Of a stretch of DNA of 46,569 nt, positions 25,893-46,186 are shown one piece after another. The stretch lies in assembly GCA_017628845.1 (NCBI GenBank), contig JAGBYI010000146.1:1-46569 (forward strand). Reading direction: 5' to 3'. Every line of letters starts with the position of its first letter. The stretch's first letter is position 1. A program made the translations under genes and the position numbers. The stretch comes from Bacteroidaceae bacterium (GTDB taxonomy: Bacteria; Bacteroidota; Bacteroidia; Bacteroidales; Bacteroidaceae). The notes under the pieces were generated by a model. That model was not told the DNA's origin. It did not search any database and was given only the letters and a program-made list of their open reading frames with translations.

Positions 25893-27695
25893 ATGATGGA
25901 GCCTAAGCACATACAAATCAAGGACTATAATTACCCTCTGCCGGAGGAGCGTATAGCGAAATTCCCCCTTGCCCAGCGCGATAAGAGCAAGCTGCTGGTG
26001 TACCGTCACGGAGACATCAGCCAGGATACTTTCTGCCATCTGCCCGAGTATCTGCCCAAGGGTGCGCTGATGATTTTCAACAACACCCGTGTGGTGAGGG
26101 CAAGGCTTCATTTCAGGAAGTCCACCGCTCCGTATTCCGATGGGCAACGCAACACGATGCAAGAGCCTTCGCAACACGACGCGATGGGCATCGCCTCGGG
26201 AGGCACTTCCACCAAGTCCCAGGGGGCACTCATAGAGATTTTCATCCTGGAGCCTGCCCTGCCTGTTGAGTATCAGGAAAACTTCCTCAGCCGAGGCCGA
26301 TGCTCGTGGTACTGTCTGGTGGGCAACCTGAAGAAGTGGAAGACAGGCTCCTTGCATCAGCAGATACAGATTGGCGAGGAAACCGTTACCCTCTCTGCCA
26401 CACGTGGCGAGACACACGGCACCAGTCATCAGATAGACTTCACCTGGGACACTGACCATACTTGGGCAGAAATCCTCGAGGCCACGGGCGAACTGCCCAT
26501 TCCTCCCTACCTGAACAGAAAGACAGAGCAGAGCGACCTCACCACCTACCAGACCGTCTACTCCAAGGTAAAGGGCAGTGTAGCTGCCCCCACGGCAGGT
26601 CTGCACTTCACCCCCGAGGTGCTGGCAGAACTGGACAGCCATGGAATTGAGCGCGAGGAGGTTACCCTGCATGTTGGTGCCGGCACCTTCAAGCCTGTGA
26701 AGAGCGAAGAGATCGGCGACCACGACATGCACACCGAGCACATTGCCGTGAACCGCACAACCATAGAAAGGCTCATAGCACACGGAGGTTCTGCCATTGC
26801 CGTCGGTACCACCAGCGTGCGCACCTTGGAGAGCCTATACTACATGGGACTTCTGGCCATGCAGGGCAAGGAAGACCTCCATGTGGAGCAATGGATGCCA
26901 TACGCCGAACACGCCGAGGCTCTGCCCGACACCTGCCAGGCTCTGCAAGCCCTGCTGAAATACATGGACGAGAGAGCGCTGGATATCCTGCACTCCTCCA
27001 CACAGATAATCATTGCACCGGGTTACAAGTTCCACATCGTCAAGATGATGGTAACCAACTTCCACCAGCCGCAAAGCACGCTCCTGCTCCTCGTTAGTGC
27101 CTTCGTGCAGGGCAACTGGCGAAGCATCTACGACTACGCCCTGGAGAACGACTTCCGTTTCCTCTCCTATGGCGATAGCAGTTTGCTCATACCCGAAACT
27201 ACTCAGGAACTCCTCCCCCTTGTTGACCCTGCCGGCAATGTCATCGGCAAGGCCACACGCACCGAATGCCATAACGGCTCCATGCTCCTGCATCCCGTGG
27301 TGCACCTGCATGTGTTCAACAGCAAGGGCGAACTATACCTGCAGAAGCGTCCCATGTGGAAGGACATACAACCCGGCAAGTGGGACACTGCCGTGGGCGG
27401 CCATGTGGACTTCGGCGAGGACATCCCCACCGCCCTTCTGCGCGAGACTCGCGAAGAACTGGGCATCAATGCCGAGGGTTGCGACCTGATGCAGATGTAT
27501 GAGTTCCATTCCGACCGCGAGCACGAACTCATCTATGCCTACAAAATTGTCTACGACAAGGACATCACTCCCAGCGAGGAGACCGACGGCGGGCGTTTCT
27601 GGTCGTTGCAGGAGATTCAAGACGCCATTGGCCAGGGCATACTGACCCCCAACTTCGAAATGGAGTTCTCTAAACTCTTTGGAAGAGAGAAATAA
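25893..27695 (+). CDS. queA: QueA-like tRNA ribosyltransferase-isomerase fused to a Nudix hydrolase
   Basis: The N-terminal part (about 1-435) is S-adenosylmethionine:tRNA ribosyltransferase-isomerase, which makes epoxyqueuosine in tRNA anticodons. QueA features: LPEERIAKFPLAQRDKSKLL, MIFNNTRVVRARL, ILEATGELPIPPYL, APTAGLHFTPEVL, HVGAGTFKPV, VGTTSVRTLES and TNFHQPQSTLLLLVSAF. The C-terminal part (about 442-600) is a Nudix domain, with Nudix box G503-x5-E509-x7-R517-E518-x2-E521-E522-x-G524, resembling the IPP-isomerase/YfcD branch. Residues about 79-110 are an insertion relative to QueA, with repeat-derived sequence (see 26178). The ATG at 25893 is used; a second lies one codon on. 600 residues against about 350-400 for QueA alone. 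No stop or frameshift between the parts. Confidence 0.88.
   Translation: MMEPKHIQIKDYNYPLPEERIAKFPLAQRDKSKLLVYRHGDISQDTFCHLPEYLPKGALMIFNNTRVVRARLHFRKSTAPYSDGQRNTMQEPSQHDAMGIASGGTSTKSQGALIEIFILEPALPVEYQENFLSRGRCSWYCLVGNLKKWKTGSLHQQIQIGEETVTLSATRGETHGTSHQIDFTWDTDHTWAEILEATGELPIPPYLNRKTEQSDLTTYQTVYSKVKGSVAAPTAGLHFTPEVLAELDSHGIEREEVTLHVGAGTFKPVKSEEIGDHDMHTEHIAVNRTTIERLIAHGGSAIAVGTTSVRTLESLYYMGLLAMQGKEDLHVEQWMPYAEHAEALPDTCQALQALLKYMDERALDILHSSTQIIIAPGYKFHIVKMMVTNFHQPQSTLLLLVSAFVQGNWRSIYDYALENDFRFLSYGDSSLLIPETTQELLPLVDPAGNVIGKATRTECHNGSMLLHPVVHLHVFNSKGELYLQKRPMWKDIQPGKWDTAVGGHVDFGEDIPTALLRETREELGINAEGCDLMQMYEFHSDREHELIYAYKIVYDKDITPSEETDGGRFWSLQEIQDAIGQGILTPNFEMEFSKLFGREK
26178..26207 (+). repeat. 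F-element fragment inside the queA coding sequence
   Basis: GCGAT (26181-26185) and ATCGC (26190-26194) around a GGGC loop, then CTCGGGAGGCAC. It matches 42693-42717 almost base for base (GATGGGCATCGCCTCG shared) and the first half of the F elements. It is read in frame as DAMGIASGG, within an insertion of about 96 nt (26127-26222). Confidence 0.7.
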
Positions 27696-30768: not shown

Positions 30769-33700
30769 TTACCTTGTCTTCCTCAGGTAGTCGGCGCGTT
30801 TGGTCATGTAGGTGGCTTGGGCCGAGGCGAGGCGGGACATGCTTTCGCGCAGGAGGGTCTGGCTCTCGAGCAGGGTGGAGAGGATTTCCGTGCCGGAGCG
30901 GTACTTGTCCATGGACATGCGCATGTTTTCGGTGGCTTCTGCCACACTGGTGCGGGCGATGTCTATCTGCTTGTAGGCCTCCATGAGCGAGGACCAGGAG
31001 GACTCTATGTCGATGATGAGCTGCTCGCGGGCATCCTGCAACTGGTTCTGCGACTGCTGCAGGGCAAGTTTCTCGCGACGTATGGCATGCGAGCCTCCCC
31101 ACCACGAGGTGATGGGCACGCTGACGGTACCGAATACCATGCCGTTGGTGGTGTTGGTCTCCATCATGGACTTTGCCCCTTCTGAGAGTCCGCCCAGGCC
31201 CACGTTGCTGACGCTGAGCCCCACGGCCACGGTGGGCAGATGCTTGCCACGCTCCATGCGCACCTTCAGCTTGCCGGCTTCCACGCCCTTCTGTGCCAAG
31301 GCCAGTTCCTGGCGGGTGGCCACGGCCTCGTCGGGTGAGATGTAGTAGTTCAGAGGACTTTCAATGTCGGTAAGCGCCATGTCCTGCACATCTATCTTCT
31401 CGCCAGCCATGCCCGTCTGCTGTGCCAGCAGGAGGCACATGACGTGGTGCGCGTTGCCGACGGTGAGGCTGTCGGAGGAGAGGCGCTGGAGTTCCAGGCG
31501 CACACGGAGCAGGTCGTTGCGAGTGGTCACCCCTGCATCCACATAGGACTGCACCTCGCGATAGATGGCATACAGCTGCTCCTGAGCCGAGCGTATGGTG
31601 GCAAGGTTGAGTTTCAGTTTCACTATCTGGTAGTAGTTCTCGGTCACTTTCTGCAGGAGGTCCTTTGTCTGTAGCTCTGCCTGTAGTTCCGCCACCTGCT
31701 TGCCAATGTCGGCCAGGCGGTTGCCGTTGACTATCTGTCCGCCCACGAAGAGAGGCTGCGTCAGTGTGGCCATGGCGGCATAGCCCTTGTCCAGTTCGCG
31801 GATGGAGTAGGGCTGACCTGCCAAGGCGGCAAAGGCGGGGTTAATCTGCCCCAAGGCAGCCAGTTCCTGAGGGTAGTAGCCATCCTGCTTTACCATCTTG
31901 TCGAAGGCATGGAAAGCCAGCAGGTTGGCAGAGATTTCGGGGAAGTACTTGGTGAAGGCCTCCCGTTTCTGCTCGCCAGCCATCTGTATCTGCAGGGTGG
32001 CATTCAGCAGGGTGCGGTTCTGTGTGGCAGCACTTTGCAGGCACTCCTGAAGGGAGACGGTGCGAGGCTGAGCTTGCATGGCAAGGCAGCAGAAGAAGAA
32101 AAGACCCACCCCCAAACTCAGTCCTCGCGTCGCAATGGAGATTGCTCCCCTCACAAGGTACAGAAGCACATTTGGTGCTTCTTCTGAAGACCTCGCTCGC
32201 CCTATATGGAGGGGAGTAGGATGTACTACTGATGGTGCACCGAGTCGGTTGTTACCACTCCCCTCCCTTGTGGAGGGGCTGGGGGTGGGTCCGCTGGGTC
32301 CTTTTTCGTACAGCTTCCAGTACACCACTGGCAGAACTGTGGTGACAAGCAGTAGCATACCTATACCACCGGCAAAGATGGTTATGCCCACGGGCATCCA
32401 GAAACTGCTACCAGCCAGAATCATGGGCACTACGCCCACGGCCGTGGTGGCGGTGGTGAGGAAGATGGGCACCATGCGTCGCTTGCCGGCATCCAGAGCA
32501 GCCTCCCTGGCCGACATGCCCTCGGCCATCTTCTCGTTGGCATGCTCGAAGATGAGTATCTCGTTGCGCATAATCATGCCCATGAGGGTGATGAAGCCAA
32601 ACATGCCCGTGAGGCCAAGCACCTTGTTGGCAATGAGCAGGCCTATGATGGCACCCGGCATGCCCAGGCTGATGGCCACGATGCACACGATGGCTATGGA
32701 GAACTTGCGGAAGTTGAACAGCAGGAAGAAGAAGATGAGCACCATGGCCATGGTTATGCTAACCATGACGTCGGGTGTGGTCTCGCCGTTCTTCTCCGTC
32801 TCTCCTCCCACCTCGGCACGCACACCCTGAGGCAGGTTCATGTGGTCGATGTAGTCGATGAGGTGGTTCTGTATGTCCAGGGCGAAGGTGCCACGCTTGC
32901 CCTCGGCGGTGACCGAGATGCAGCGCTCGCCATTGCGGTGCACTATCTTTGTCTGGCTCCACACGGGCTTCACCTCAGCCACCTGGCGCAGTGCCACGGA
33001 CGAGGCGGTGGGGGTGGTCAGGTAGGTGTTCTCCACATCGCTCAGCTGCATGGCATCCTGCTGGCGGTCCTTCATGACGATGGGCACCTCGTAGGTACGG
33101 CTCTTGCCATCCACATTGCCAGCCTCCCAGATGCTGCCCACCTGCACCTTGCCCGTCTGGAGCATGAGCTGCAGTTCGGCAGAAGTGCGTGTGATGCCCA
33201 TCTGCGCCGACGCCACGGGGTCGAGGCTAACCTGCACCATGGGCGAAGGCATGTCGAAATCCGTGTGCACCCACTCCAGTTCGGGAATCCTGCGCATCTC
33301 CTCCATGAGCATCTGTGCCGCCTTCTGTATGGAATCCGTGTTGTTGCCATAGAAGCGGTATTCATAGGTGGGTACGGGCAGATAGTCCATCTGCTTCCAG
33401 CGCACATAGGCATTGGGCCAGTGGTTGGAGTATTTCGGTGCCAGCTGGTCGAGAAGTTCCAGCGAAGCCTCGTTGCTCTCGGTGTTTACTATAAGCTGGG
33501 CAAAGTTCTTGCCGGCAATCACAGGAGCATAGCTGGTGTGGAAGCGAGGCGAGGAGCAACCCACGAAACTCGTCACACCCGTCACCTTGTCGTTGGACTT
33601 CAGTATGGCGCTAAGTTCGTCGGCAATGAGCCTTGTCTCCTCCAGGCCGCTACCCTCGGGCAGGTACACCTCCACGGCAAACTGGTTGCGGTCGGCAAAG

Positions 33701-35367
33701 GGGAACTGGCGCATCTTGAGCAAGGGGAACAAGGCACCTGTGGCGACTACCAGCACTATGCTTCCCACTATGGTGAGCCATGGGTGGCGGAAGTTCCACT
33801 CCAGAGTCTTGTCGTACCAGTGCTGCACCCAGTCGGTTAAGTCGCGCTTGCCAGGCCCCTTGGCCTTCACACGGCGAATGATGGCAGCATTGAGCAAAGG
33901 GATGATAAAGGCCGCCACCACCAAGGATACCATCAGGTTGATGGTGATGGTGAGGGGGAAGAGCTTGATGACGTCGGCCGCCTCGCCCTTCATGAACTTG
34001 AGTATGGGGAAGAAGATGGCACAGATGCATACCGTGGCCAGAAGCATGGGCCAGAAGTACTGCTGCACGCTCTTCACCGCCGCCTCTCGACGGCCCATTC
34101 CCTTGCCCAGGTACTCGAGATAGCCGTCGATGACCACTATGCTGTTGTCCACTATCATGCCCAGCACCACGATGAGGCAAGCCAGGGTGATGATGTTCAG
34201 CTCTATGCCCAAGGCATACATTATGCCTGTGCTTACGAAGGTGGACAAGGGTATGGTGAGAGCCGCCACGATGGCACTCTTCAGGGGGAAGAGCACTATC
34301 ATCACCGCCACGATGATGAGCATGGAGATGATGAGGTCGCGCAGGAAGTCGCTCACGCTGGTGCCCACCACCTCGGGCTGGTCGGTGATGCGGCGCATCG
34401 TCACATCCTTGGGCAGGCAGTCCTGGCGGAACTGGTTCAGCACCACGTCCACATCCTTGCCAAACTGCACTATGTTGTGCCCCTTGAGCATCTCCAGCGA
34501 GAGGATGACGCAGCGCTTGCCATTGGACTCTATGTAGGCCTCGCTCATGTCGTACTCGCGAGTCACGGTGGCAATGTCGCGCACACGCAGCACCTTGCCG
34601 TCGGGGGCATTGAAGATGATGCGCTCGCCAATCTCCTGCTCGGAACTGATGCTGGGCGCCACGTGTATCTTCAGGTTCTGGTGCGGAGTGGACACCATGC
34701 CGCTCATGGTGGTGAGTCCCTGGCTGGTGAGTGCCTGTACCAAGGCCTGGCGCCCTATGCCATAGGCAGCCAGGCGCTCCTTGTCCACGGTGATGGTAAG
34801 CTGCTCCTTCTTCTCGCCAATCTGCCTCACGTTGCTCACGCTGGGAAGGCGGCGCAGGCGGTCGGCCAGCTCGTCGCTATAGCCCTGCAGCTCGCGATAG
34901 GAGCGCTGGTCGCTCTCCACGGTGATGAGCAAGGCGCTGGTGTCGCCAAAGTCGTCCTGAGCCACCAGTGCCAGCACACCCTGAGGCAGGGAGTACTTGA
35001 ACTGGTTGAGCCCATGCTTCATCTTGCTCCACACGGGGGTGAGGTTGTTCTGGTCCTGCTGGAACTGCACCATCACTATGCACATGCCGTTCTGGCTGGT
35101 GGAATAGGTCTTGCTGCGGTCCACCTCCTTGTAGGTGAAGATGTAGCGTTCCAGAGGCCTTGCCACCTGTTCCTCTATCTCCTCGGCTGTGGCACCAGGC
35201 ATCACGGCAATCACCACACCCTGGCGTATGGTGAAGGGCGGAAACTCGTCCTTGGGCATCACGTATATTGCCCACAGGCCAAAGGCCAGAAGCAATGCCG
35301 TGAGAAAGGCCGTTATCTTATAGTTGTTGATAGGCCATGCTATCCAACTGCTGTTCTTGAAAGTCAT
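30769..35367 (-). CDS. RND efflux pump fused in one ORF to a TolC-like outer-membrane factor
   Basis: Single 1532-residue frame encoding two normally separate proteins. Residues 1 to about 1021 are a complete AcrB/CzcA-type RND transporter: first helix ITAFLTALLLAFGLWAIYVMP, porter domains, central VLGMIVDNSIVVIDGYLEYL, and last helices ITIFAGGIGMLLLVTTVLPVVYW. Residues about 1022-1080 form a Pro/Ser/Arg-rich linker encoded entirely by repeats (32126-32301). Then comes a signal-peptide-like core (LSLGVGLFFFCCLAMQAQ, likely cleavage before Q1100) and a full outer-membrane efflux protein (about 1100-1532) with two OEP repeats. No stop and no convincing ATG separates the parts. R1041 (CGA, 32245-32247) stands where the same repeat gives TGA in xseA. 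The adaptor lies upstream, separated by a repeat. Alternatives: re-initiation at a non-ATG codon, or a sequence error at 32245. Confidence 0.88.
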   Translation of the reverse strand: MTFKNSSWIAWPINNYKITAFLTALLLAFGLWAIYVMPKDEFPPFTIRQGVVIAVMPGATAEEIEEQVARPLERYIFTYKEVDRSKTYSTSQNGMCIVMVQFQQDQNNLTPVWSKMKHGLNQFKYSLPQGVLALVAQDDFGDTSALLITVESDQRSYRELQGYSDELADRLRRLPSVSNVRQIGEKKEQLTITVDKERLAAYGIGRQALVQALTSQGLTTMSGMVSTPHQNLKIHVAPSISSEQEIGERIIFNAPDGKVLRVRDIATVTREYDMSEAYIESNGKRCVILSLEMLKGHNIVQFGKDVDVVLNQFRQDCLPKDVTMRRITDQPEVVGTSVSDFLRDLIISMLIIVAVMIVLFPLKSAIVAALTIPLSTFVSTGIMYALGIELNIITLACLIVVLGMIVDNSIVVIDGYLEYLGKGMGRREAAVKSVQQYFWPMLLATVCICAIFFPILKFMKGEAADVIKLFPLTITINLMVSLVVAAFIIPLLNAAIIRRVKAKGPGKRDLTDWVQHWYDKTLEWNFRHPWLTIVGSIVLVVATGALFPLLKMRQFPFADRNQFAVEVYLPEGSGLEETRLIADELSAILKSNDKVTGVTSFVGCSSPRFHTSYAPVIAGKNFAQLIVNTESNEASLELLDQLAPKYSNHWPNAYVRWKQMDYLPVPTYEYRFYGNNTDSIQKAAQMLMEEMRRIPELEWVHTDFDMPSPMVQVSLDPVASAQMGITRTSAELQLMLQTGKVQVGSIWEAGNVDGKSRTYEVPIVMKDRQQDAMQLSDVENTYLTTPTASSVALRQVAEVKPVWSQTKIVHRNGERCISVTAEGKRGTFALDIQNHLIDYIDHMNLPQGVRAEVGGETEKNGETTPDVMVSITMAMVLIFFFLLFNFRKFSIAIVCIVAISLGMPGAIIGLLIANKVLGLTGMFGFITLMGMIMRNEILIFEHANEKMAEGMSAREAALDAGKRRMVPIFLTTATTAVGVVPMILAGSSFWMPVGITIFAGGIGMLLLVTTVLPVVYWKLYEKGPSGPTPSPSTREGSGNNRLGAPSVVHPTPLHIGRARSSEEAPNVLLYLVRGAISIATRGLSLGVGLFFFCCLAMQAQPRTVSLQECLQSAATQNRTLLNATLQIQMAGEQKREAFTKYFPEISANLLAFHAFDKMVKQDGYYPQELAALGQINPAFAALAGQPYSIRELDKGYAAMATLTQPLFVGGQIVNGNRLADIGKQVAELQAELQTKDLLQKVTENYYQIVKLKLNLATIRSAQEQLYAIYREVQSYVDAGVTTRNDLLRVRLELQRLSSDSLTVGNAHHVMCLLLAQQTGMAGEKIDVQDMALTDIESPLNYYISPDEAVATRQELALAQKGVEAGKLKVRMERGKHLPTVAVGLSVSNVGLGGLSEGAKSMMETNTTNGMVFGTVSVPITSWWGGSHAIRREKLALQQSQNQLQDAREQLIIDIESSWSSLMEAYKQIDIARTSVAEATENMRMSMDKYRSGTEILSTLLESQTLLRESMSRLASAQATYMTKRADYLRKTR
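32126..32205 (+). repeat. Structured repeat element F, copy 3, inside the RND-OMF ORF
   Basis: Hairpin 1 pairs GCAAT (32132-32136) with ATTGC (32141-32145). Hairpin 2 pairs AGAAGCAC (32162-32169) with GTGCTTCT (32175-32182), a different stem from copies 1 and 2 at the same position. It ends just before the hydrophobic core of the outer-membrane factor's signal peptide, where that gene's own start codon should have been. Confidence 0.75.
32246..32301 (-). repeat. Type A repeat inside the RND-OMF ORF (A3)
   Basis: Minus-strand reading is GGACCCAGCGGACCCACC, then the CCCCTCCACAAGGGAGGGG hairpin, then AGTGGTAACAACCGA. It is translated as GPTPSPSTREGSGNNR, nearly the same peptide as the XseA tail (PPHPSTREGSGYN). 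The family tail TACAACTGA is here AACAACCGA, which removes the stop. Confidence 0.8.
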
Positions 35368-35553: not shown

Positions 35554-36588
35554 CTACTCTTCTACCAAAGTCCCCTCGCTCACCTTCTGGTAGCCGTTGG
35601 TTATTACGCGGTCGTCCTTGTCAAGGCCGGAGAGTACCTCTATGCGGTTGCCCAGTGGCTTGCCCATGGTGATGACTTTTCTGTGCGCCTTGCTGTCTTT
35701 CACCACCCACACGAAGTGCTTGCCGTCGGCAGATTGCTGTATGCTGCGCACGGGCAGGGTCATGCCCTGGATGCTGTCATTGGCATGCAGATACACCTTT
35801 GCCACCATGCCGGGAAGGATGTCGCCCTCGGGGTTGGGCAGGGCAATGCGTATGTCGTAGGTATGTGTCAGCGCATCTGCCACCACACCCTTCTCTATCT
35901 TTCCGCCCTCCAGGGTCTTGTCTCCGATGGCCTCAATGCTGATGCTCGATGTTGTGCCGGGCTTGATGGAGGAAATCTCTTTCTCGGGGATGCTGACCTT
36001 CACCTTCAGGGTCTTGATGTCCAGGATGGTAAGCACTGGCTGACTGGGCAGGGCAGTCTCTCCTGCACTAACCCACTTCTTGCCCACCACACCGTCTATG
36101 GGAGCGTATATGCTGCAATCCTCCAGCATCTTCCTGGCGGCAGAGAGAGAGGCCTCGGCCTGTTCCACCTTGCTCTGCACCTCCACCCACTTCATGTCGG
36201 CCAGCGACTTGTTCTCGTGCAACTGGCGCATGCGCTCCAGGGCATCGGTGGCCTGCTTGTGCGACGCTTCTGCCATGGCCAGGGTGTTCTGTGCCTGGGT
36301 CTTGTCCATCTCGGCAACGAGCTGACCCTTGCGCACGCGCTGCCCCTCGCCAACGCATATCTGCTTCACCATGCCTATGCCGGTGAAACTCACCGCCACG
36401 GAGGTTGACTCCTCCACCGTGCCCACATAGGCGGTGCCTGTCTCCCGAGGCTGGGCGGCAACGCTTTCGGTTGTCACCTTCAGTGGAGCGGTGCCATGCT
36501 GCACCTTCTCTTGCGAGCATGCCACTAGGCAAACTGCCATCAGCAGCATTTGCCACAGGTGTAATGCTTTCATTGTCTTCTTTTTCAT
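35554..36588 (-). CDS. RND efflux periplasmic adaptor (membrane-fusion lipoprotein)
   Basis: Links the RND pump to the outer-membrane factor across the periplasm. The ATG at 36588 is chosen: it gives a lipoprotein signal (MKKKTMKALH...AVCLVAC, Cys24), and the longer frame would start with TTG inside the promoter. About 344 residues: barrel-sandwich half-motif GIGMVKQICVGEGQRVRKGQ, an alpha-helical hairpin (about 95-150, ANTLAMAEASHKQATDALE...), the second sandwich half SIYAPIDGVVGKKWV, then beta-barrel and membrane-proximal domains (VRSIQQSADGKHFVWVV). It is the first gene of the efflux operon; the pump-OMF ORF follows after a 186-nt repeat. Confidence 0.92.
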   Translation of the reverse strand: MKKKTMKALHLWQMLLMAVCLVACSQEKVQHGTAPLKVTTESVAAQPRETGTAYVGTVEESTSVAVSFTGIGMVKQICVGEGQRVRKGQLVAEMDKTQAQNTLAMAEASHKQATDALERMRQLHENKSLADMKWVEVQSKVEQAEASLSAARKMLEDCSIYAPIDGVVGKKWVSAGETALPSQPVLTILDIKTLKVKVSIPEKEISSIKPGTTSSISIEAIGDKTLEGGKIEKGVVADALTHTYDIRIALPNPEGDILPGMVAKVYLHANDSIQGMTLPVRSIQQSADGKHFVWVVKDSKAHRKVITMGKPLGNRIEVLSGLDKDDRVITNGYQKVSEGTLVEE

Positions 36589-36618
36589 ATGTTGTGATAC
36601 TGTTTTGTTTTTCGGGTG

Positions 36619-36626
36619 CAAAGGTA
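36619..36626 (-). promoter_or_regulatory. -7 box of the efflux operon promoter
   Basis: Minus-strand TACCTTTG followed by CA, 30 nt before the adaptor ATG. The 36589-36805 gap holds this and the divergent xseA promoter. Confidence 0.75.
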
Positions 36627-36805: not shown

Positions 36806-38104
36806 ATGCAGGCACTATCACTCTTCGAACTCAATGCCATGGTGCGCTCCTTCATAGAGGGGTGTGCCGAGGATGCCTATTGGGTGCATGGCGAACTGCT
36901 GGAGGGCAGGGCAGGATATGGCGGACATTTCTATGGCGAACTGGTGGAGAAGAACGAACTCAGCGGTGCCATAGTGGCCAAGGCCCGCATTACCATTTGG
37001 GCGCGTGTCTACAATATGCTTGCCCTTCGTTTCCAGGCAGAGACGGGGCAAAGCCTGCGTGCTGGCATAAAGGTGCTCTTGAAGGTGAAAGTCACCTTTA
37101 GTGAACTCTATGGCTATGCACTTAATGTCATCGACATAGACGGCACCTACACCCTGGGCGACCAGGCTCGCCGCCGGCAGGAGATATTGAACCAGCTGGA
37201 GAAGGACGGTATCATCAACGACAACAAGGACCTGCCCATGCCCACCTTGCTCAGGCGCATTGCCGTAGTGTCCAGTGCCACGGCGGCTGGATATGGCGAC
37301 TTCTGCCGCCAGTTGCTGGAGAACGAGTGGGGGCTGGCATTCCGTGTGCAGCTCTTTCATGCCGTAATGCAGGGGCAGCATGTACCGGAGAGCATTTCGG
37401 CTGCTCTGATGCAGATAGCCGACGAGAGCGATAACTGGGATGCCGTGGTAATTATCCGTGGAGGCGGTGCCACGAGCGACCTTTCCGACTATGATTCCTA
37501 TGAACTGGCTGCCTGTATAGCTCAGCATCCTCTGCCTATTATAATAGGTGTAGGTCACGACCGGGACGAGACGGTACTTGACCATGTGGCGCATACCTCC
37601 GTCAAGACCCCCACGGCAGCAGCTGCTTTCATCCTGGAGCATCAGTTGGAGCAACTCAGTTTGTTGCACGACCTCCAGCAACGCATCCCCCTTGCCGCCT
37701 CCGCCAAGATGCAGCGCGAGGAGCAGCGCCTGGCTCTCCTTCGTCAGCGCCTCCCCTCGGTGGTGACGCTGCGTTTGCAAAGGGAGTATCAGCGCCTCGA
37801 GCGTTCATTGCTCCTTCTGCCTTTCTCAGCAGCCCGTGTGGTGGAGAAGGAGAAGCATCGTCTGGAACTCCTTTCCCAACGCCTCGATAGCCTAAATCCC
37901 GAACTGCTCCTCAGCCGTGGATACTCCATCACCCTGATGGATGGCAAGATAGTGACCGACATTTCCAATATACTTCCAGGTTCCCAAATAGAAACCCGCC
38001 TGCAGGGCGGCACCGTGCTCTCGCAGGTGGTGGGAGTGGAAACGGAAAACCGACAAGACCCTCCCCCTCACCCCTCCACAAGGGAGGGGAGTGGTTACAA
38101 CTGA
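36806..38104 (+). CDS. xseA: Exodeoxyribonuclease VII large subunit
   Basis: Catalytic subunit of exonuclease VII, degrading single-stranded DNA together with XseB. N-terminal OB-fold (about 1-100, WVHGELLE...GHFYGELVEK), then the catalytic domain: RRIAVVSSATAAGYGDF, VIIRGGGATSDLSDYDSYELA, IIIGVGHDRDETVLD and HTSVKTPTAAAAFILEH. A long helical coiled-coil region follows and the C-terminal LSRGYSITL. 432 residues. The last 15 (DPPPHPSTREGSGYN) are not family sequence: they and the stop codon come from the type A repeat starting at 38057. Confidence 0.95.
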   Translation: MQALSLFELNAMVRSFIEGCAEDAYWVHGELLEGRAGYGGHFYGELVEKNELSGAIVAKARITIWARVYNMLALRFQAETGQSLRAGIKVLLKVKVTFSELYGYALNVIDIDGTYTLGDQARRRQEILNQLEKDGIINDNKDLPMPTLLRRIAVVSSATAAGYGDFCRQLLENEWGLAFRVQLFHAVMQGQHVPESISAALMQIADESDNWDAVVIIRGGGATSDLSDYDSYELAACIAQHPLPIIIGVGHDRDETVLDHVAHTSVKTPTAAAAFILEHQLEQLSLLHDLQQRIPLAASAKMQREEQRLALLRQRLPSVVTLRLQREYQRLERSLLLLPFSAARVVEKEKHRLELLSQRLDSLNPELLLSRGYSITLMDGKIVTDISNILPGSQIETRLQGGTVLSQVVGVETENRQDPPPHPSTREGSGYN

Positions 38105-38227
38105 CTATTGAATATTAACTTTTAACAAATCTATTAACCCTTTAACCAAATTATCATTTCCCGGTACTATATACTCCCGCCCCTTGTGGGAGGGTTGGGG
38201 AGGGGTCCGCCGGTACGGGGAGGGGTC
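38057..38227 (+). repeat. Full-length type A element overlapping the end of xseA (171 bp, A5)
   Basis: Bounded by GACCCTCCCC and GGGGAGGGGTC. It provides the last codons and TGA of xseA (tail TACAACTGA, stop 38102-38104) and ends 6 nt before the xseB start. Inverted relative to A4 at 35375-35550. Confidence 0.88.
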
Positions 38228-43789: not shown

Positions 43790-44040
43790 TATCCACCCCC
43801 TCCCCCCCTTCGGGGTACTCGCCCCTGTCTCAGGGGGAGAGCCAGTTACAACAAAAACTGCGTTAACCAACTGTCCCTCTGAGACAGGGGGACGAGCGCG
43901 AAGCGCGGAGGGGGTGGATAGTTTACCGTTTCTGTTTCGCCTTTGCGTTCTCCTGTCGCGCGTAGCCAGCGACTACTCCAGCGACAGCGTAGTTTGCATT
44001 GGAAATTCTGCGGCCTTTGCGCTCTTTGCGTGAGATAAAA
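43790..44040 (+). repeat. Composite B+C repeat, copy 1
   Basis: B part 43790-43920: terminal inverted repeat TATCCACCCCCTCC / GGAGGGGGTGGATA, two CTGTCTCAGGGGG-type hairpins in opposite orientation, and the tail CAGTTACAAC. C part 43921-44040: CTGTCGC...GCGACAG around GCGTAGCCAGCGACTAC, then TTTGCGCTCTTTGCGTGAGA. Close copies lie at 45576 and 45869. Confidence 0.85.
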
Positions 44041-44123
44041 GAACGGAAAGGTGAGTGCTTTAGCCCCTTTGGGCGTCGACCTATGCTTCGTTGGCTCGGA
44101 AGTAAAAATAAAATTGTTTTTAT

Positions 44124-44155
44124 TTTGCTTTTTCCCTCACTTAATCGTACCTTTG
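44124..44155 (+). promoter_or_regulatory. mrp upstream promoter P1
   Basis: -33 TTTG 44124-44127, 20-nt spacer, -7 TACCTTTG 44148-44155. It lies within a 60-bp segment duplicated at P2. Confidence 0.75.
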
Positions 44156-44206
44156 ACTATTGTCTAAGGTACTCACACTCGGAAGTAAAAATAAATTTGG
44201 AATTAT

Positions 44207-44237
44207 TTTGTACTTCCCTCGCTTAATCGTACCTTTG
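44207..44237 (+). promoter_or_regulatory. mrp downstream promoter P2
   Basis: -33 TTTG 44207-44210, 19-nt spacer, -7 TACCTTTG 44230-44237. CTCGGAAGTAAAAATAAA precedes both P1 (44096) and P2 (44178), and both share CTTAATCGTACCTTTG. Confidence 0.8.
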
Positions 44238-44260
44238 CATAAACTTTCCCCCTCCTTTCT

Positions 44261-44296
44261 ACTCCCCTCACTTGCAGGGAGGGATGGGGTGGGTCT
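44261..44296 (+). repeat. Type A repeat end before the mrp start (A7)
   Basis: CTACTCCCCTCACTTGCAGG, then GGGATGGGGTGGGTC, ending 14 nt before the mrp ATG and followed by TTAATAT. Same end and orientation as A5 before xseB and A4 before the RND gene. Confidence 0.65.
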
Positions 44297-44310
44297 TAAT
44301 ATAATATAAC

Positions 44311-45411
44311 ATGGAACTGTATCCCAAACTAATAATGGATGCCCTGGCTACGGTACGTTATCCTGGCACGGGCAAGAACATAGTGGAGATGGAAATGGTG
44401 GAGGACGACTTGCGCATAGCAGGCATGCACGTGAGTTTCTCCCTCATCTTCGACAAGCCAACAAACCCCTTCCTCAAGTCGCTCGTAAAGGCTGCCGAGG
44501 CTGCCATACATGCCTACGTTAGCAAGGACGTGGAAGTGGAGATAAAGACCAAGACCTTGCAGGCGCCACGTCCCGACCTGCCCGACCTGCTGCCTGGTGT
44601 GAAGAACATCATTGCCGTGAGCAGCGGCAAGGGTGGAGTGGGCAAGAGCACGGTGGCAACAAACCTTGCCGTGGCACTGGCGCGCATGGGACATCGTGTG
44701 GGTCTGCTGGATTGCGACATCTTCGGTCCCAGCGCTCCCAAGATGTTTGGCATGGAGGATGCTCGTCCCTATAGCGAGAATATCGGCGGACGCGACCTCA
44801 TCATGCCCGTGGAGAAGTACGGCATCAAGGTGCTGAGCATAGGTTTCTTCGTTGACCCCGATACTCCTACCCTTTGGCGTGGCGGCATGGCATCAAATGC
44901 CTTGAAGCAACTCATTGGCGATGCCGCATGGGGCGACCTCGACTATTTCGTGCTCGACACACCTCCAGGTACCTCCGACATACACCTTACTCTGGTGCAG
45001 ACCCTACCCATAACTGGTGCCGTCATCGTGAGCACACCCCAGCAGGTGGCACTGGCTGATGCCAGAAAGGGCATAAACATGTACACCAACGAGAAGGTGA
45101 ATGTGCCCATCCTGGGCCTGGTGGAGAACATGGCATGGTTCACTCCCGAGGAGCATCCCCAGGAGAAATACTATCTCTTCGGCCGTGAGGGCGTGAAGAC
45201 CCTGGCAGAGGAAATGAACGTACCCCTGCTCGGACAGATCCCCGTGGTGCAGAGCATCTGCGAGAATGGCGACGGCGGTACTCCAGTAGCCCTGGAACCA
45301 GGCAGCATCACCGGTCAGGCCTTCCTGCAGCTTGCCGCCCGTGTAGTCACCGAAACCGACCGCCGCAATATCGAGCGCGAGAAGACAAAGATAGTGGAGA
45401 TGAAGAAGTAG
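44311..45411 (+). CDS. mrp: Mrp/ApbC-type P-loop ATPase (iron-sulfur carrier family)
   Basis: Cytosolic MinD-like ATPase of the ApbC/Nbp35 family, implicated in Fe-S cluster delivery. Residues 1-90 are a MIP18/DUF59-like domain. The deviant Walker A is SSGKGGVGKST (about 104-114), followed by LLDCDIFGPSAPKMFG, RGGMASNALKQLIGDAAWGD, DYFVLDTPPGTSDIHLT and GAVIVSTPQQVALADARKG. At VENMAWFTPEEHP (from residue 271), where ApbC/Nbp35 carry a CPxC cluster-binding motif, there is no cysteine. I recall Bacteroidetes homologues as similar here, so this may be a lineage trait. 366 residues, two tandem promoters. Confidence 0.92.
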   Translation: MELYPKLIMDALATVRYPGTGKNIVEMEMVEDDLRIAGMHVSFSLIFDKPTNPFLKSLVKAAEAAIHAYVSKDVEVEIKTKTLQAPRPDLPDLLPGVKNIIAVSSGKGGVGKSTVATNLAVALARMGHRVGLLDCDIFGPSAPKMFGMEDARPYSENIGGRDLIMPVEKYGIKVLSIGFFVDPDTPTLWRGGMASNALKQLIGDAAWGDLDYFVLDTPPGTSDIHLTLVQTLPITGAVIVSTPQQVALADARKGINMYTNEKVNVPILGLVENMAWFTPEEHPQEKYYLFGREGVKTLAEEMNVPLLGQIPVVQSICENGDGGTPVALEPGSITGQAFLQLAARVVTETDRRNIEREKTKIVEMKK

Positions 45412-45460
45412 ATTACAGATTACAGAGAACGGATTACGGATTAAATAATCACTGCCCACT

Positions 45461-45486
45461 GAAGGGACGCTGCGCAGCGTCCCTTC
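45461..45486. repeat. 26-nt perfect palindrome (element D, copy 3)
   Basis: 13-bp arms with no spacer (GAAGGGACGCTGC and its complement), 50 nt after the mrp stop, followed by TATGTTTTC. It may terminate mrp. Core identical to the D elements at 10005 and 12754. Confidence 0.85.
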
Positions 45487-45575
45487 TATGTTTTCTACTA
45501 TCGCTTACTCGCAGTTTTCACCTTTGACTTCAGCCCCTTCGGGCGTCGACCTTCGGTTCCGTTTTCCGTTTACTT

Positions 45576-45830
45576 TGTCCCTCTGAGACAGGGGGACGAG
45601 CGTGAAGCGCGGAGGGGGTGGATGGTTTTCCGTTTCCGTTTCTGTTTTTCTTTGTGTTCTCTGTCGCGCGTAGCCAGCGACTACTCCAGCGACAGCGCAG
45701 TTTGCTTTGGAATTCTGCGTCCTTTGCGCTCTTTGCGTGAGATAAAATAATAGCGTTTTATTTTCACGCGGAGAGCGCAAAGAGCGCAGAGAATTATTGC
45801 CTTTCCTATTTCACGCTTGCGCTGGAGAGG
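45576..45830 (+). repeat. Composite B+C repeat, copy 2 (B part truncated)
   Basis: Right half of B (45576-45623, TGTCCCTCTGAGACAGGGGG to GGTGGAT), then the full C part (45625-45748), then a tail TAATAGCGTTT...CCTATTTCACGCTTGCGCTGG to about 45830. The tail contains an inverted version of the C end (GAGCGCAAAGAGCGCAGAGAATT). Confidence 0.8.
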
Positions 45831-45868
45831 TCGCAAACTTTGTTACGACAAGAGTGCGCAGAGAGTTC

Positions 45869-46186
45869 TATCCACCCCCTCCCCCCTTCGGGGTACTCGC
45901 CCCTGTCTCAGGGGGAGAGTCAGTTACAACAGAAAACCTGCGCTAACCAACTGTCCCTCTGAGACAGGGGGACGAGCGCGAAGCGCGGAGGGGGTGGATA
46001 GTTTTCCGTTTCTGTTTTTCTTTGCGTTCTCTGTCGCGCGTAGCCAGCGACTACTCTAGCGACAGCGTAGTTTGCCTTGGAATTCTGCGTCCTCTGCGCT
46101 CTTTGCGTGAGATAAAGATAATAGCGTTTTGTTTTTCACGAGAGCGCCGAGATTTATTTCCTATTTCACGCCTGCGCTGGAAGGGG
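45869..46186 (+). repeat. Composite B+C repeat, copy 3
   Basis: B part 45869-46000, nearly identical to 43790-43920; C part 46001-46117; tail to 46186, matching 45749-45830. Arranged as a direct tandem with copy 2. Confidence 0.85.

Follow-up and report, generated by a model that had tools for sequence, protein, structure and literature searches.

A palindromic repeat joins an RND permease and an outer-membrane factor in one reading frame within a genus of Bacteroidaceae

Main finding

A whole RND permease and a whole TolC-type outer-membrane factor (OMF) are encoded by a single open reading frame in the DNA of a gut bacterium of the Bacteroidaceae, and the linker between them is a copy of an interspersed palindromic repeat that also supplies the beginning of an internal signal peptide. 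The DNA analysed, hereafter the window, is a stretch of 46,569 nucleotides (GenBank assembly GCA_017628845.1, contig JAGBYI010000146.1). The fusion is conserved in related species and recurs within the genus, and in one pair of fused species the substitutions across the junction are of the coding type. We propose, with a probability of roughly 0.7, that one chain is made, that the internal signal restarts export, that signal peptidase cuts the chain, and that pump and duct would be equal in amount.

The fused ORF and its operon

The ORF at 30769-35367 on the minus strand starts with ATG, encodes 1532 aa, and is free of stop codons across the RND/OMF junction. An earlier note, made from the sequence alone, had described an RND transporter, a linker, and an OMF in one open frame, and Pfam recognized both domains in it. 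ACR_tran (PF00873) matched residues 18-1018 with 520.2 bits against a gathering cut-off of 28 and was covered from position 11 to 1019 of 1021. OEP (PF02321; 135.1 bits, gathering cut-off 22) matched in two stretches, the better of which is 1346-1527; similarity to outer-membrane efflux proteins covers the 430 residues at the C-terminus. The features of the locus are as follows.

35554..36621, minus strand: periplasmic adaptor (membrane fusion protein) of the same pump, upstream of RND, TIGR01730
35501..35550, minus strand: partial second copy of the linker repeat, between the adaptor and RND genes
32305..35367, minus strand: RND permease part, residues 1-1021, ATG start (ORF and Pfam/NCBIfam profiles)
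32103..32291, minus strand: repeat-derived linker, a 189-bp interspersed palindromic repeat copy with 12-bp inverted ends, in frame
32071..32115, minus strand: internal signal-peptide core LGVGLFFFCCLAMQA, residues 1085-1099, with the candidate signal peptidase I (SPase I) site A1099-Q1100
30769..32070, minus strand: outer-membrane factor, TolC/OEP type, residues 1100-1532 and stop codon (ORF and Pfam)

The adaptor gene at 35554-36621 scored 209 bits with TIGR01730 (cut-off 94.9), and an adaptor gene also adjoins the RND gene in relatives. The operon is a complete tripartite pump made from two genes, not three. The RND part of the window scored below the curated cut-offs of TIGR00914 (CusA/CzcA heavy-metal RND; 266.3 against 701.45), TIGR00915 (HAE1-type RND; 283 against 940), NF033617 (448.6 against 1250), and NF000282 (350.6 against 1250), and the OMF part scored below that of TIGR01844 (TolC family; 86 against 225.15). 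The solved chain closest to the RND part by sequence is MexK. Rfam and tRNA scans of the window gave no matches. Elsewhere in the window, a 600-residue ORF at 25893-27695 combines a queuosine-synthesis domain (PF02547) with a C-terminal NUDIX domain.

Distribution of the fusion in the genus

The earlier note had proposed a search for homologues with the same fusion. The search took in 139 genomes of the genus, and the locus was read in 94 of them. Each locus was called fused or split from the junction DNA itself and not from open-frame length, since pairs separated by a stop (L012 and G004, for example) could also be listed with long open frames. Eight genomes were fused, 83 were split, and three had no adjacent OMF match (L014, L191, and L196). 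Identity to the window ranged from 48 to 100% at the RND end and from 32 to 100% in the OMF; because of this wide range, some of the split loci may be paralogues. The fused loci form two groups, A (the window genome G000, G089, G075, and G094) and B (G017, G156, G021, and G147). Where assembly names are available, the fused junctions come from separately named assemblies, and those of G075 and G094 are identical to the junctions of assemblies RGIG4159 (roe deer colon) and RGIG8676 (water deer colon), respectively. The second RND-OMF pair of the window's genome (G000:C53, L201) is split, and its RND is 54% identical.

The repeat-derived junction is common to all four group-A species. Their linkers, counted from YWK to MQAQPRT, are 81, 54, 69, and 63 residues long, in frame, and stop-free; the G089 frame, like that of G147 in group B, was read from a partial ORF at a contig or locus end (698 and 933 aa). 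A stop or frameshift hidden in the junction, which the earlier note had considered, was seen in none of the four, as there is neither a TGA nor a frame-restoring indel. The difference in linker length is one 18-bp unit between G075 and G094 and 27 codons in all between the window and G089. At the start of the G094 (L062) and G075 (L063) linkers, the first repeat half gives way to TKRKTENGKRKTA together with one or two 18-bp units (ENSDYS), so the same fusion is held open by filler DNA of another kind. In group B the linker is shorter, and the Pro closing the hydrophobic core is equidistant from YWK in all four species. PSRPPRGEG, common to G017 and G156, looks like a piece of the repeat.

The number of origins was examined on a tree of 89 sequences (RND end and OMF) built by a quick method (LG+G4, SH-aLRT only), with a long-branch warning that concerned four other rows, meeting in pairs. 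On this tree the fused state requires six changes, at least four of which are forced by well-supported branches. A single origin of all eight fusions was rejected (AU p 1e-40). Group A is compatible with one clade (p 0.83), the constrained tree outscoring the free tree. Group B as one clade was not rejected (p 0.135), although split species are interspersed in the free tree. By this phylogeny at least two fusions occurred, and re-splits or exchange are possible in group B.

Repeat origin of the linker

Perfect 12-bp inverted repeats bound 32103-32291 (189 bp), and the repeat part of the linker amounts to 63 codons (residues about 1026-1089). Searched against the genome that contains the window, 32100-32295 gave 66 matches (E<=10), self included, some of them full-length and many covering one half or less. 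The earlier note's reading of a linker of about 60 residues made of repeats is borne out by these figures. The shorter G089 version of the repeat gave 56 matches at E<=0.001, and the motif CCCTCCACAAGGGAGGGG occurs five times in the window with at most three mismatches, against 0.09 expected. With its 189 bp, its perfect 12-bp ends, and tens of partial or full copies, the repeat is short, multicopy, and bounded by terminal inverted repeats, as a MITE is.

Other copies in the window lie between the adaptor and RND genes and where the exonuclease VII gene ends. This gene, for the large subunit (36806-38104), has a repeat-coded tail, DPPPHPSTREGSGYN (window 38057-38106). Dense direct repeats of up to 114 nt at 96% identity fill 43797-46120 and look like another repeat family.

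In all 30 repeat loci examined (three copies counted twice), at least one of the six frames was open through the repeat copy. Since the copies examined are all open in some frame, a read-through insertion is not improbable. The openness of the repeat alone is unremarkable; it is the conservation in other species that lifts the fusion above chance.

The internal signal core and the start of the OMF

The OMF N-terminus of a split sister (L061) is MKRLFPTLVFFLASITIQAQPKN, and the corresponding chain of the window is LGVGLFFFCCLAMQAQPRT. LGVG is encoded by the repeat end, TTGGGGGTGGGTC, and from about the CTT TTC that follows the original signal sequence continues, so that the first codons of the core LGVGLFFFCCLAMQA (TTG GGG GTG GGT CTT) fall within the repeat or at its end. 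Comparison with the sister shows that the OMF has lost its start codon, its basic n-region, and its initial hydrophobic residues to the repeat. The earlier note had suggested the loss of the start codon; the comparison upholds this and extends it to the start of the signal peptide. The replacement supplied by the repeat reads TRGLSLGVG in the window and HRGRGLGVG in G089, G075, and G094, and may have come about by insertion or by recombination between the repeat and the gene.

The core occupies residues 1085-1099 and is followed by Q1100, where the earlier note had placed the A-Q boundary. The same core and Q are found in G075, G089 has one Phe fewer, and G094 reads LTMQA-Q; the signal core and the A-Q site are therefore retained in all four group-A species. 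The cores of the fused loci match the hydrophobicity of those of eight hand-picked split relatives.

Peptides of the types TPLxxREGxGVG and GEGxG stand directly behind the signal peptide in the split OMFs L120, L126, L137, L139, L098, L077, and L202. Compared as peptides, the OMF N-termini of L120, L126, and others resemble the translation of the repeat, as if such repeats entered the start of the OMF gene again and again.

Selection on the joined frame

dN/dS was computed by the Nei-Gojobori method for nine pairs. In the RND and OMF parts it was 0.05-0.22 over all nine pairs and 0.07-0.22 in the three group-A pairs. For the linker and signal, the group-A values were 0.38 (window-G089), 0.11 (G075-G094, with four changes only), and 0.52 (window-G075, with an uncertain alignment), and the group-B values were 0.36 (G017-G156), 0.40 (G017-G021), 0.23 (G156-G147), and 0.98 (G156-G021); two saturated pairs were not computable.

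These values bear on the reading of the locus as an assembly error or a decaying pseudogene, which is very improbable. The window does come from a draft of 223 contigs with 84.6% completeness, and repeats are prone to misassembly. However, the same type of junction is present in the genomes of three other species, and the parallel CusA fusions described below are one CDS in finished records. An assembly artefact was rejected on the basis of the other species' genomes, and the low dN/dS of the RND and OMF parts in the three group-A pairs speaks against decay.

The pair G017-G156, picked after the alignments had been seen, was compared frame by frame. Over the 26 codons from the RND end through the core, which include the signal core (coding under any model), the fused frame gave pS 0.52 and pN 0.06 (Fisher p 2e-5), and the differences at the three codon positions numbered 5/0/10. 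The other two frames, both of which contain stops, gave pS/pN of 0.16/0.16 and 0.00/0.25 (p 0.014, in the opposite direction). The 27-base palindromic part is unchanged between the two species; the comparison thus speaks for translation of the joined frame but draws nothing from the repeat-like piece. The linker substitutions between the window and G089 pointed weakly in the same direction (pS 0.14, pN 0.06).

Candidate internal starts

A separate initiation, mostly non-AUG, might provide most of the OMF, the joined frame being incidental; we regard this as unlikely. Candidate starts in the window are a TTG at 32115-32113, a GTG at 32109-32107, and a GTG at 32154-32152 (residues 1085, 1087, and 1072, respectively), and the GTG at 1072 would put an n-region with two arginines ahead of the core. 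The TTG and GTG that the repeat codes in LGVG are present in all four group-A species, and an ATG lies 33 residues before the core in G075 and 27 before it in G094. Normal-looking signal starts would also arise in G021 from a TTG directly before NKAVVV (giving MNKAVVV...) and in G147 from a GTG before PVPKTTATALV, nine residues ahead of the core (giving MPVPKTTATALV...). On the other hand, with the frame open, any ribosome completing the RND part will produce the fusion regardless, a start at 1085 or 1087 would be without a basic n-region since the basic residues lie upstream, and the conservation of the group-A TTG and GTG is expected because they arrive with the repeat. Moreover, two of the four group-B species, G017 and G156, lack any ATG, GTG, or TTG from the end of the RND part up to the signal core, and their linker and core evolve as coding DNA. 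Extra internal initiation may nevertheless occur in group A, G021, and G147. A hairpin acting as a block to internal initiation was not supported: the predicted GC-rich hairpin directly before the TTG was no stronger than those of shuffled sequences (z -1.0 and -0.2; 0.1 for the group-B piece) and favours neither view.

Proposed polyprotein

In the reading that we prefer, a palindromic repeat of the genome's own MITE-like family, lying between the RND and OMF genes, has displaced the stop of the former and the start of the latter, and the ribosome would make a single 1532-aa chain from the joined frame. The C-terminus of 12-helix RND pumps is cytoplasmic. The RND part would insert with its C-terminus in the cytoplasm, where the repeat-coded linker would stay, and the rebuilt signal core (upstream basic residues, then LGVGLFFFCCLA) would act as a second export signal. 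A cut by SPase I after about A1099 would release the OMF into the periplasm and on to the outer membrane. We infer the restart of export, the cleavage, and the equal amounts from sequence and topology; the topology, which the earlier note had judged to allow a polyprotein, fits other Bacteroidota RND-OMF fusions that have an internal A-Q or a lipobox-type Cys. Pump and duct would be made in equal number. PMC4446572 describes an RND trimer that carries an adaptor hexamer, over which the OMF trimer sits (3:6:3 RND:adaptor:OMF), and equal synthesis of pump and duct would fit such an assembly.

The chain might instead stay uncut, the core remaining in the membrane as a 13th helix that tethers the OMF to the pump. 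The core is hydrophobic enough to remain in the membrane, and position -3 of the candidate site of the window is Met, which is atypical of SPase I sites and a poor residue for the enzyme; the split relative L003 reads AMHA-Q and thus has Met at -3 too. However, only about five residues separate the core from the conserved OMF start, too few to span to the OMF, which is held above the adaptor, beyond the reach of some five residues from the inner membrane. A tethered, uncut OMF is therefore improbable, and the A-Q or lipobox-type Cys sites retained in parallel fusions likewise argue against it.

We lean slightly towards a broader view, in which Bacteroidota would repeatedly make RND and OMF as a polyprotein cut by leader peptidase (by lipoprotein signal peptidase in the AcrB-NodT case), with 1:1 output. 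The repeat of this genus would create such a polyprotein in a single step, its end giving both the open linker and a basic-then-hydrophobic signal start. If the polyprotein is real, it would be a route for building a two-membrane machine, would set subunit ratios by natural means, and would require internal signal peptides to be recognized after twelve membrane helices. It would also be a recent example, with both split and fused species among the relatives, in which a short repeat has given rise to a functional protein junction and to part of a signal peptide. Many RND-OMF fusions are contained in genome records.

Comparison with known systems

The RND-OMF fusion architecture itself is already known, being common in the CusA/CzcA pumps of the phylum and annotated there as one CDS. 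Four CusA-type RND-OMF single frames of 1441-1447 residues were obtained from a survey of the order (identified by Pfam in three and by TIGR00914 in L220, which scored 1151.8 against the cut-off of 701.45). Together with six more, which were the best matches to one query and are thus related to each other, they give ten CusA-type fusions, all of which have a hydrophobic stretch ending in A-Q between the domains. When 296 genomes of the phylum were searched with a CusA-OMF junction query, the matches listed included, by hand count, at least about 125 stop-free ones extending 100 residues or more into the OMF side, in at least about 95 genomes. On finished Pontibacter and Flavobacterium plasmids, the fusion is one CDS named CusA/CzcA, with the OMF part unmentioned.

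These CusA/CzcA-OMF proteins of Bacteroidota (TIGR00914 and PF02321; WP_025603792.1 of Pontibacter and WP_264563277.1 of Flavobacterium) resemble the window protein in that one ORF contains RND, a short linker, an A-Q core, and OMF, and the adaptor gene was adjacent in the two records examined, as in the window. In contrast, the window protein belongs to a different RND subfamily (266 against the TIGR00914 cut-off of 701), its gene order is adaptor-RND-OMF, its linker comes from an interspersed repeat, and its distribution is patchy, close relatives being split.

An AcrB-type RND and a NodT-type OMF are likewise joined through an internal signal in one frame. All five stop-free fusions of this type among the loci read (L230, L238, L246, L247, and L250) have a Cys at a lipobox position of the internal signal, whereas the window has an A-Q site; most of the other loci retrieved with the AcrB-NodT query were split. 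In L230, the one locus of this type that was scored, the RND exceeded the cut-offs of TIGR00915 and NF000282 and the OMF that of TIGR01845. Because a lipoprotein Cys is useful only after a cut by lipoprotein signal peptidase, the AcrB-NodT fusions would argue for cutting at internal signals generally.

A literature search, which left most subscription papers outside, found no paper describing natural RND-OMF fusions as polyproteins, and an RND-OMF fusion is described in none of the accessible parts of PMC8277102, PMC4827864, PMC4026382, PMC4446572, PMC13082787, and PMC4943939. As for the repeat, the MITE-like Rickettsia palindromic elements and enterobacterial RU/ERIC elements (PMC10969869, PMC2759123) are short palindromic multicopy repeats that remain open and contribute peptide sequence to genes; the abstract of PMC2759123 refers to proteins in which signal-peptide and transmembrane motifs are predicted. 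Unlike these in-gene elements, the window repeat connects two entire genes and provides the opening stretch of an internal export signal. What is new here is the other RND subfamily, the linker and signal start built from a repeat, and the patchy and recurrent occurrence of the fusion within one genus.
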